This document shows positions 5,010-27,044 of a stretch of 35,497 nucleotides of DNA, one piece after another; position 1 is the stretch's first letter, and each line of letters starts with the position of its first letter. The notes under the pieces are model-generated. The model had not been told where the DNA came from. It saw nothing but the letters and a program-made list of their open reading frames with translations, and searched no databases. The position numbers and the translations under genes are program-made. The stretch is from Vicinamibacterales bacterium (GTDB lineage: Bacteria; Acidobacteriota; Vicinamibacteria; Vicinamibacterales; UBA2999). The DNA is taken from positions 1 to 35,497 of the forward strand of contig JAUXWO010000002.1 of the NCBI GenBank assembly GCA_030680175.1, written 5' to 3'.

Positions 5010-5121
5010 AAACACGAAGGACACGAAGGTCACGAAGACGCCACACGGAAACTCATTCCAAGGATGACCGGATAGAACATGGCATCCGTGCGTCCTTCGT
5101 TTCTTCGTGTCCTTCGTGTTT
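5010..5121. repeat. Long inverted repeat built of CACGAAG-type nonamers
   Basis: The 19-nt arm AAACACGAAGGACACGAAG (5010-5028) has its exact reverse complement at 5103-5121, with a 74-bp loop. The left arm continues as a 9-bp tandem (CACGAAG units at 5012, 5021 and 5030 with two variable bases). It lies between two convergent genes (stops at 4997 and 5133), so it could end transcription from both sides, although no T-tract follows. Translation of such repeats gives KHEGHEE-like peptides that are often annotated as spurious proteins. Confidence 0.7.
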
Positions 5122-11443: not shown

Positions 11444-12319
11444 ATGGGACTGCGGCGCGTGCCCACCGAGTCCCTCGCCCCACGGCTCGACCGCCTGTAC
11501 AGCGACTACAACCACGCGTATGTGGTGAGCGATCCGATCTGGATGGTCCGCCGGTTCACGCGCGCCGACGATCAGGAGATCGTGGCGTTCTGCGCGGCGG
11601 CGCTCGCGTTCGGGCGCGTGCAGAGCGTGCTGAACTCGATCGAAGGGCTGCTGCAGGTGATGGGGCCGCATCCCGCGGCCTACACCCGCTCGTTCGATCC
11701 CGCGCGCGAGGCGCGCCGCTTCGATCATCTCGTGCACCGGTGGACGCGCGGCGCGGACCTGGCTGCTCTGGTGTGGCTGCTGCACCAGATGCTGGCGCGC
11801 GCCGGGTCCATCGAGGGGTTCTTCGCGGAGGGGCACGACGAGGCGGCCGAGGATGTGGGGGCCGGACTCGAGTCGTTCTCGGCTCGGGCACTGGCGCTCG
11901 ACCAGGCGGCGGTCTACGGGCGGAGGCGGCCGCGGCCCGGGGTGGCGTACTTCTTCTCGCGGCCCTCGTCTGGCGGGGCGTGCAAGCGGCTGAACCTGTT
12001 TCTGCGGTGGATGGTGCGGCGCGACGAGGTGGACCTGGGCGTGTGGACGCGGGTGCGGCCGTCGCAGCTGGTGGTGCCGCTCGATACCCACGTGATCCGG
12101 GTGGGCCGGTGCCTGCGGCTGACGCGCTACCGGAGCCCGGGATGGCGGATGGCCGCGGACATCACCCGCGCGCTGCGGGTCCTGGACCCCGAGGATCCCG
12201 TGAAGTACGACTTCGCGCTCTGCCATCTGGGGATGATGGGGGCCTGCGGCTACGGGACGAAGCAGCGCGCCTCCCAGTGCCCCCTGAAGGGTAGCTGCTA
12301 CCCCGGGGTCAGATCTTGA
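11444..12319 (+). CDS. TIGR02757 (DUF2400) family protein
   Basis: The 291-residue protein matches the TIGR02757 family: the N-terminal LYSDYNHAYVVSDPIWMVRRF, the segment EIVAFCAAALAFGRVQSVL, and the C-terminal KRLNLFLRWMVRRDEVDLGVW followed by PLDTHVIRVGRCLRLT. The helix-rich region with LDTHV resembles HhH-GPD DNA glycosylases, and a Cys cluster near the C-terminus (CPLKGSC) recalls their Fe-S loop, but no activity is established. The gene is coupled to the M28 peptidase. Its last residues GVRS and the stop are encoded by the left arm of a perfect palindrome, so the native C-terminus may have been replaced. Confidence 0.8.
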   Translation: MGLRRVPTESLAPRLDRLYSDYNHAYVVSDPIWMVRRFTRADDQEIVAFCAAALAFGRVQSVLNSIEGLLQVMGPHPAAYTRSFDPAREARRFDHLVHRWTRGADLAALVWLLHQMLARAGSIEGFFAEGHDEAAEDVGAGLESFSARALALDQAAVYGRRRPRPGVAYFFSRPSSGGACKRLNLFLRWMVRRDEVDLGVWTRVRPSQLVVPLDTHVIRVGRCLRLTRYRSPGWRMAADITRALRVLDPEDPVKYDFALCHLGMMGACGYGTKQRASQCPLKGSCYPGVRS

Positions 12320-12350
12320 TTCTGAGCGCAAGGATCAAGATCTGACCCCG
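12304..12350. repeat. Perfect 17-bp palindrome between convergent genes, likely bidirectional terminator
   Basis: The arm CGGGGTCAGATCTTGAT (12304-12320) and its exact reverse complement (12334-12350) enclose a 13-bp loop. Both convergent genes end inside it: TGA at 12317-12319 on plus, and TGA at 12337-12335 on minus. Read from either side, the arm encodes Gly-Val-Arg-Ser-stop, so both proteins have the same four-residue tail. The GGGGTC-type palindrome recurs in reduced form at 17717-17729. Confidence 0.85.
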
Positions 12351-13429
12351 TACGCGGCGAGCGTGCCTTCGACGAGGTGCCCGATGTCGAATTGCCCCGC
12401 AACACGCCGCCGGCCGGCGGCGCCCATCTGGCGGCGCAGGGCGGGCGACTTCAGCAGCCGGATGATGGCTTCGGCCAGCGCGGCCGGATCCCCGGGCGGC
12501 ACGAGCAGCCCCGTTTCGCCATGCACCACCGCCTCCGGGATTCCCCCCGCGCGCGTGCCGACAACCGCCAGGCCCATCGCCATCGCATCGAGCAGGGTCG
12601 ATCCCAGGCCTTCCGTGATCGAACTCATCACGAACAGGTCGGCCGTCTTCGCGAGCGACAACACGTCCTCGCGGAACCCCGGCAACAGGACGTGCTTGTC
12701 GAGGTGCAGGTCCTTCACCTGGCGTTCCAGCGCCCCCCGGAGTTCCCCCTCGCCGAATATCACGGCGTGCGCGTCCGGCACCGCGCGGCGCACCCGGGGC
12801 ATCGCGTCGATCAGGTGCCGCTGCCCCTTGTGATCCACGAGCGCCGCCACGTTGACGATCACGGGCACCCCGTGCGGCAGCCACAGCTCCTGATGCAGGT
12901 CCACGGCCGGCATGCCGCTGATCCGTTCGACGTCGATCCCGTCGTGGACCACCACGATGCGTGAGGCTGGCACGCCGTCGCGCACGAGGATGTCGCGGAT
13001 CGCGCCCGAGGCGGCAATGAACCCGTCCACCTGCCGGTACACCCAACGCGAGAAGGAATGGCGCTGCAGGTGGAAGTCGACCCGCCGCGAGGCGAGGAGC
13101 CGCGGCCGCGGCACCGGCGCGCCGAACGAGAGCGCGAGCGCCGCCATCGACACCGCGTGGGCGTCCTGCGCATGCACCACGTCCGGCCGGTACTCGCGGA
13201 TCAGGCGCGACAACCGCCACGCGGCGCCGAGGTCCATGGCATTGCGCGGCGCCAGCGGCACGAGGTCCGGCCCCTCGCGCGCACGCTGGAACAGCACGCC
13301 CTGCGGATGCGCCACGAGCACCGTCCGGTGGCCGAGCCCCCGGAGGCCCAGCACCGTCAGGAACGCCTGGTTCTGCCCGCCGCGCCAGGTGCGTCCGGTA
13401 TCGATGTGGAGTGAGAACACAGCTCCCAC
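12335..13429 (-). CDS. GT4-family glycosyltransferase
   Basis: The 364-residue protein has the two Rossmann domains of GT-B enzymes. The N-terminal domain opens with FSLHIDTGRTWRGGQNQ, typical of GT4 lipopolysaccharide/exopolysaccharide enzymes. The C-terminal domain has VVHDGIDVERI, the strand VAALVDHKGQRHLIDAM, and the nucleotide-sugar motif MSSITEGLGSTLLDAMAMGLAVVGTRAGGIPE (residues about 270-300), including the EX7E-type arrangement. Sugar and acceptor are unknown; a GT2 partner suggests cell-surface glycan work. The start is a GTG at 13429, or possibly at 13420; either overlaps the end of the GT2 gene by 64-73 bp. The C-terminal GVRS-stop comes from the palindrome at 12334-12350. Confidence 0.87.
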   Translation of the reverse strand: MGAVFSLHIDTGRTWRGGQNQAFLTVLGLRGLGHRTVLVAHPQGVLFQRAREGPDLVPLAPRNAMDLGAAWRLSRLIREYRPDVVHAQDAHAVSMAALALSFGAPVPRPRLLASRRVDFHLQRHSFSRWVYRQVDGFIAASGAIRDILVRDGVPASRIVVVHDGIDVERISGMPAVDLHQELWLPHGVPVIVNVAALVDHKGQRHLIDAMPRVRRAVPDAHAVIFGEGELRGALERQVKDLHLDKHVLLPGFREDVLSLAKTADLFVMSSITEGLGSTLLDAMAMGLAVVGTRAGGIPEAVVHGETGLLVPPGDPAALAEAIIRLLKSPALRRQMGAAGRRRVAGQFDIGHLVEGTLAAYGVRS

Positions 13430-16655: not shown

Positions 16656-16901
16656 ATAGATGCTATCTCGTGACGTGGTGATGTGGTGATGTGATGATCG
16701 GATGTGCGATCTCCAGATGCGCGATCTATCTGGTGATCTGATGGTGCGCGATCTATCTGATGGCCTGCGGGCACCTCCGATCAGATCACCAGATAGATGT
16801 CACCGAGGGCGGGTGAGATCGGCGCATCGGACATCCAATCACCACATCACCACATCACGAGATCACCAGATTCACGTTTCTTATCTATCTATCTATCTAT
16901 C
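16647..16901. repeat. Large imperfect palindrome of microsatellite-like repeats between pyrE and truA
   Basis: The left arm opens with GATA units (16647-16661) and octamers GTGGTGAT, GTGGTGAT, GTGATGAT (16675-16698). The right arm mirrors it: ATCACCAC, ATCACCAC, ATCACGAG, ATCACCAG (16838-16869) and then five TATC units (16882-16901) ending just before the truA ATG. The centre holds GATCTATCTGGTGATCTGAT and its near complement. There is no gene in the 247-bp gap. The GATA run provides the pyrE stop and the TATC run abuts the truA start, so copy-number change would alter either gene's edges. Confidence 0.8.
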
Positions 16902-26862: not shown

Positions 26863-26864
26863 CG

Positions 26865-27044
26865 CTGTCAGCCTTCGGCTCTCGGCTTACGGCTTACGGC
26901 CGTCAGCTCTCAGCTTTCGGCTGTCAGCTTTCGGCTTTCGGCTCGTGGGGTTCGTCGCCAGCGGGAAGTCGCCGGGAGCCGGAAGCTGAGAGCCGAGAGC
27001 TGAGAGCCGACCGCCGAGAGCTGAAAGCTGACGGCTCACAGCGA
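26865..27044. repeat. Opposed heptamer arrays in the heme operon
   Basis: 26865-26941 holds eleven heptamers of the CTNTCNG type (CTGTCAG, CCTTCGG, CTCTCGG, CTTACGG and so on). 26975-27044 holds about ten of the reverse type (GAAGCTG, AGAGCCG, AGAGCTG, AAAGCTG). A 33-bp spacer separates them. Because they are in opposite sense, long imperfect pairing is possible; for example 26900-26921 matches the complement of 27013-27034 at 20 of 22 bases. The gap has no gene. Confidence 0.8.

Follow-up and report, generated by a model that had tools for sequence, protein, structure and literature searches.

The window analysed here, a 35,497-nucleotide stretch of DNA from a Vicinamibacterales bacterium (contig JAUXWO010000002.1 of assembly GCA_030680175.1), contains two convergent genes, encoding a TIGR02757/DUF2400 protein and a GT4 glycosyltransferase, which meet at a palindrome (Table 1). 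As the first-pass annotation of this DNA had pointed out, the symmetry of the palindrome is exact, its arms being perfect 17-bp inverted repeats, and the two open reading frames share a Gly-Val-Arg-Ser (GVRS) end, with each TGA stop lying within an arm. According to a repeat finder, the arms reach 20 bp at 95% and are 7 nt apart. Folded as RNA, the hairpin reaches -36.0 kcal/mol on the + strand (shuffles averaged -11.6; z -9.96) and -30.6 kcal/mol on the - strand, lower than any of 200 shuffles. The domain matches of both proteins extend to the last profile positions. Stops on both strands in the first arm also occurred in 68% of shuffled hairpins; the capacity of this arm to stop translation from two sides is, thus, ordinary, and we rejected the idea of specially designed stops.

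Table 1. Coordinates of the palindrome, of the genes that end in it and of other inverted repeats in the window
Feature	Position	Strand	Remarks
TIGR02757/DUF2400 gene	11450-12319	+	start approximate; element supplies final 4 codons and stop
Palindromic repeat element (TIR hairpin)	12304-12350		47 bp; 45-bp core at 12305-12349
Left arm	12304-12320	+	contains GGG GTC AGA TCT TGA (12305-12319), the GVRS-stop of TIGR02757
Asymmetric centre	12321-12333		TCTGAGCGCAAGG; both orientations occur among copies
Right arm	12334-12350	-	has the same 15 bases, read on the - strand at 12349-12335, which end the glycosyltransferase with GVRS-stop
GT4 glycosyltransferase gene	12335-13429	-	start approximate (alternative 13420); element supplies final 4 codons and stop
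AAACACGAAGGACACGAAG inverted pair	5010-5028 and 5103-5121		74 bp apart
ATCTATCTGGTGATCTGAT inverted repeat	16724-16742 and 16780-16798		perfect, 19 bp; 37 bp between
Imperfect inverted repeat	26864-27035		59 nt, 78%

A search for the palindrome elsewhere in the genome, proposed when it was first described, revealed a dispersed repeat. The 15-mer arm GGGGTCAGATCTTGA has 59 exact copies in the 4.98-Mb genome, of which 30 are forward and 29 reverse, and a reversed-pattern control of the 15-mer had none in the same genome. When hits less than 120 bases apart were joined, the 59 copies formed 27 places. Nineteen of these are single 45-bp hairpins as at the locus described above, with the central 13 bases identical or closely related and in either orientation; the remaining places are longer, single-armed or small clusters, and close pairs of copies are present. 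The element is made of two inward-facing terminal inverted repeats (TIRs; GGGGTCAGATCTTGAT...) that form a short hairpin, and belongs to a dispersed family. Its ends are GGGG/CCCC, with GGGGTCAG, which fits GGGGWSAS, at both. Two flanking bases were complementary in 13 of 25 own copies (mean for shuffled pairs, 7.2) and in 5 of 24 copies from other organisms (mean, 1.8), indicating that the stem often reaches slightly outward beyond the element.

The exact 15-mer was found in none of 42 other genomes of the family, a count of exact matches only, which leaves variants aside, and viral contigs had no match to the hairpin pattern. A hairpin scan of a named genome collection returned 23 stretches in seven assemblies: three Acidobacteria, an Elusimicrobia, a Desulfofustis, a Geobacteraceae and one further bacterium. 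The window also holds other inverted repeats. The 19-mer AAACACGAAGGACACGAAG, with 110 copies in the genome (56 forward, 54 reverse), represents a second, larger dispersed repeat family; ATCTATCTGGTGATCTGAT occurs at a single place in the genome; and the imperfect inverted repeat is made of short GCTCTCAGC-like units.

We then placed the copies relative to genes, which were called with a simple codon-usage caller written for this analysis and no published gene finder. In this genome 23 of 28 element-facing gene 3′ ends overlapped the element or lay within 25 bp of it, and 3 of 22 gene 5′ ends did so (both counts omit the 2 of 27 places within genes); 10 of the 28 3′ ends stopped inside the element. 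The preference for 3′ ends is weaker in the other organisms, because there not only 23 of 28 gene 3′ ends, but also 10 of 15 gene starts, were within 25 bp or overlapping.

The first-pass annotation had asked how often the palindrome carries stop codons. GVRS-stop closes genes at eight elements in this genome (ten ends) and at two elements in Acidobacteria nzgw76 (three ends). Besides the two genes of the window, those of this genome encode an S1-domain protein, a DAP epimerase fragment (at a contig edge), a Glucosamine_iso/6-phosphogluconolactonase-family protein, an FAD oxidoreductase, a transposase, an ADI/DDAH-type protein, an LPG_synthase_TM protein and a dksA/traR zinc-finger protein. 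Pfam matches that extend to their final, or almost final, positions within 30 residues of the C-terminus were found in 10 of the 12 GVRS proteins other than the transposase. Convergent genes are closed from both sides at three elements, namely that of the window, L081 and L131; one of the two genes at L081 is weakly scored yet Pfam-matched. At L077 (3603-3685) the frame of the Glucosamine_iso-family protein continues, without the element, for 494 codons into the next gene, so that the element now keeps two genes apart.

The frame in which genes enter the element is biased: 13 of 18 entries lead to GVRS-stop, five use the second frame (L069, L072, L116, L118 and L127) and none the third. The probability of at least 13 of 18, at one third each, is about 0.0009 for this hand tally, which includes the transposase itself and treats related events as independent. 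After entry in the second frame, the element is either an in-frame passenger within a gene, as in those for an alpha-amylase-domain protein (L069) and UvrA (L127), or gives the protein a tail whose stop is in the far arm (L118) or immediately past the element (L116). The passenger at L069 (3427-3516) is a 90-bp element in the sole open frame of a called 997-aa gene, to which it adds about 30 residues; that at L127 (1284-1347) lies within the uvrA gene of Acidobacteria RYN_30.

The position of the copies at gene 3′ ends, together with a strong RNA hairpin on either strand, would also suit a functional bidirectional terminator, or a stabiliser of mRNA 3′ ends, that is under selection and whose coding part is a by-product. 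A terminator serving both genes had been suggested at the outset. As an intrinsic terminator, however, the palindrome is unsupported, because the hairpin has no U-tract; there is no T-run on either side, and a scan was negative for terminator-like sites at this position. Convergent spots hold 6 of 25 placed copies compared with 30 of 169 gene pairs, which is no strong excess; three copies lie between divergent genes and two inside genes. In addition, ribosomes terminating at the stop, which is within the stem, would be expected to unfold the hairpin. We consider a selected terminator or stabiliser unlikely as the origin of the arrangement.

The genome has three Y1_Tnp matches, one of which, at C142, sits between inverted copies of the repeat (pairing traced to a 40-base limit, with up to 2 mismatches). 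The C142 transposase matches PF01797 and has both HUH and Tyr motifs, with HVH at residue 60 and YIVHNP at 119; the tyrosine of the latter is presumably the catalytic one. Its final codons and stop (..PGVRS) lie within its own 3′ repeat. At the C-terminus HTH_38 and HTH_23 were seen at 250-275 below the Pfam cut-offs (23.2 of 27 and 21.1 of 24.6, respectively), and the Y1 stretch of 109 aa, the sole part scanned against NF047646, reaches 45.8 bits, where the cut-off of that model is 80.

Y1 matches were present in five of the seven other hairpin-bearing genomes, at 15 loci in total. One of the 15, L170 in the MAG Acidobacteria RYN_30, carries the identical exact repeat on both sides, in inverted orientation. 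It matches the C142 transposase best, with 49% over query residues 1-277, and the two are sisters, with support 100/99, in a tree of 39 proteins, from which loci of fewer than 150 residues were left out (45 of the 47 loci given had a match). Among the 45 transposase loci compared, the exact repeat lies beside the transposase at C142 and L170 only. In an adjoining clade of four, three loci have GGGGTCAGGTCA repeats on both sides and the fourth has them on a single side, and in a further clade of three, GGGGTCAGACCC is on both sides at two loci and on one side at the other. The repeat sequence, thus, broadly tracks the lineage of the transposase, which is what a cognate pair should show. The match is loose elsewhere: many of the 45 loci lack a GGGGWSAS pair, and at L160 one side carries GGGGTCAGACCC despite the distance of this locus in the tree from the clade with that repeat. 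A GGGGWSAS pair of at least 14 bases was present at 7 of 32 transposase loci scanned, and in three of the seven (L031, L146 and L152) the transposase stop is inside its own 3′ repeat.

Of the seven other hairpin-bearing genomes, then, one pairs a Y1 gene with the exact repeat, four have Y1 genes without it, and two (G043, with L118, and G044, with L122), each with several hairpin copies, had no Y1 match. The missing pairing could reflect gaps in MAGs or lost transposases. Judged from the sequences, the most probable agent of hairpin mobility is a REP-associated-type Y1 (HUH) tyrosine transposase (TIRYT/RAYT) whose gene is flanked by the same repeats.

A different source of mobility would be an ordinary DDE transposon, one MITE of which was inserted with target duplication and ended both genes by chance. 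Short inverted-repeat structure and dispersed copies are what such an element would show, and the QMITEs of Coxiella similarly overlap gene 3′ ends, according to the account available from PMC5896051. However, direct repeats of 4-5 bases flank none of 25 own copies and none of 24 others, and those of 2-3 bases are at chance level; given this lack of target duplications, a Y1 transposase fits better. A Y1 transposase gene flanked by the same repeats in two genomes also speaks against a DDE MITE, which we regard as very unlikely.

We compared both proteins of the window with their relatives, as the first-pass annotation had advised. TIGR02757 matches were found in 40 other genomes of the family, and of 29 loci fetched 28 had a visible end; the GT4 relatives are the eight found near a TIGR02757 gene. 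GVRS ends none of the 28 TIGR02757 relatives and none of the eight GT4 relatives, and no case of the same C-terminal residues without a palindrome, which we looked for in these two sets, came to light. In four TIGR02757 relatives the stop directly follows the conserved C-x-P, after which the protein of the window has GVRS, and the others have different, mostly short, tails. The GT4 gene retains ..TLAAY and then diverges from the tails of all eight relatives, which run 6 to 17 residues past this region. Since the relatives lack GVRS, and the 42 family genomes lack the 15-mer, the GVRS ends look acquired.

The spacing of the two genes varies among relatives. At L092 they are convergent with 98 bp between them, at L101 and L110 their 3′ ends share 11 and 13 bp, respectively, and in four others 526 to 1079 bp separate them; an apparent 22-bp overlap at L113 follows a 202-residue extension and is a doubtful reading. 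Because of the overlaps at L101 and L110, we do not claim that a spacer was lost at the position of the palindrome.

The first reading of the locus held that the palindrome arrived between two convergent genes and donated their ends. Donation is favoured by the comparison with relatives; simple arrival between the genes is not compatible with what happens when the hairpin is removed and the flanks are joined. The TIGR02757 frame then runs 204 codons further and the GT4 frame 326, which rules out plain insertion: the native stops, with the short tails that held them, are gone at both genes. When the element was removed from all 13 GVRS ends, 12 continued for at least 30 codons and one for 7. 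This genome is the sole member of its genus among the genomes compared and there is no empty site at the DNA level, so we infer the insertion rather than observe it.

The same long frames might arise from an assembly artefact, in which two copies with sequence between them collapsed to one in the MAG. The repeat occurs in 27 places, nearby pairs of copies exist, and neither gene has a nearby stop after removal of the element. Nevertheless, the two-sided arrangement recurs at L081 and L131, one of them in another assembly, and the convergent gene order is kept in relatives, at the distances given above for L092, L101 and L110. A 47-bp repeat is also shorter than many assembly k-mers, which counts against collapse. 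We give this explanation very little credence. A native origin of the GVRS ends, with a palindrome formed on the spot by chance, is already contradicted, and has a negligible probability: although first-arm stops on both strands are common in random hairpins of the same composition, the arm has 59 copies, no relative ends in GVRS, and the tail is common to unrelated protein families.

We consider it likely that a TIR hairpin copied by a transposase reached both gene ends through insertion and loss of the old tails. The Y1 transposase would copy the hairpin to new sites, one of them near the convergent ends of the TIGR02757 and GT4 genes, after which the genes would lose their old tails, the two native stops and any spacer. 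The loss may have proceeded by flanking deletions once the element supplied a stop, or, alternatively, by recombination of two nearby copies, one behind each gene. The insertion would be tolerated because the in-frame stop comes four residues after complete domains, and, the element being palindromic, it closes a gene in the same way from either side.

More tentatively, TIR hairpins might act as portable gene ends in general, recurrently replacing the tails, stops and any spacer of their neighbours and giving them a stop, a tail and an mRNA hairpin, with selection favouring the GVRS frame, which has the shortest tail. This wider proposal is possible, though we think it the less probable outcome. 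If it is true, tail-replacing insertion of TIRYT repeats would be a recurrent route of gene re-ending, and no single-locus accident.

The repeat fits a published class of elements. Di Nocera 2013 (PMC3733652) defined TIRYTs, some of them with GGGGWSAS repeats; in the parts of that paper available to us, figure legends mark flanking repeats that overlap the 3′ end of the transposase gene, and some TIRs are dispersed families, single, dimeric or grouped. Likewise, GGGGWSAS inverted repeats (here GGGGTCAG) flank a Y1 gene with HUH and Tyr motifs, may overlap its 3′ end and are dispersed. The TIRYT/TIRtron class of PMC3733652 is probably the TnpA_REP subclass 2.1 of PMC6006769; 20 of 26 TIRYTs fall in this subclass, which has a C-terminal HTH, an extension weakly detected in the C142 transposase. 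Unlike the TIR hairpins described here, the TIRs in those descriptions are credited neither with stop donation nor with two-sided ending. The comparison was by motif and description, so the published set may include an identical arm.

GTAG REPs, as described in the same portions of PMC3733652, are tied to RAYT genes and lie mainly downstream of coding regions, with some inside genes, and their termini often give TAG to flanking ORFs. They, and REPINs, resemble our element as short, RAYT-linked palindromes that supply stops and sometimes sit inside genes. In contrast, our element has no GTAG terminus, ends in GGGG/CCCC, provides GVRS and then TGA, the latter as the fifth codon of its arm, and is symmetric at its ends, so that both sides act alike. 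QMITE1 and QMITE2 of Coxiella burnetii overlap the 3′ ends of functional genes, one of them presumably providing 33 C-terminal residues (PMC5896051, from the text available); they are, thus, also miniature repeats at gene 3′ ends that supply a C-terminus, but are described there as MITEs of another kind and without two-sided ending.

Stop donation by mobile palindromes is, as these accounts indicate, already known for GTAG REPs, with Coxiella QMITEs being similar. One repeat that ends two convergent genes is not reported in the portions of PMC3733652, PMC6006769, PMC12306157 and PMC5896051 available to us. What is distinctive here is the repeat family, the closure of genes from two sides, the replacement of gene ends and the bias towards one frame (13 of 18).

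These results tie an orphan-looking palindrome to a little-studied class of transposases, the TIRYTs. For annotation, they mean that GVRS tails in this genome are repeat DNA rather than a conserved protein signal, and that an identical tail across unrelated proteins is a handy marker of insertion. Since this repeat is paired with one clade of transposases in two genomes, its recognition code can be put to the test. Repeats of this kind can rewrite the C-termini of ordinary genes, even those of two facing genes together.
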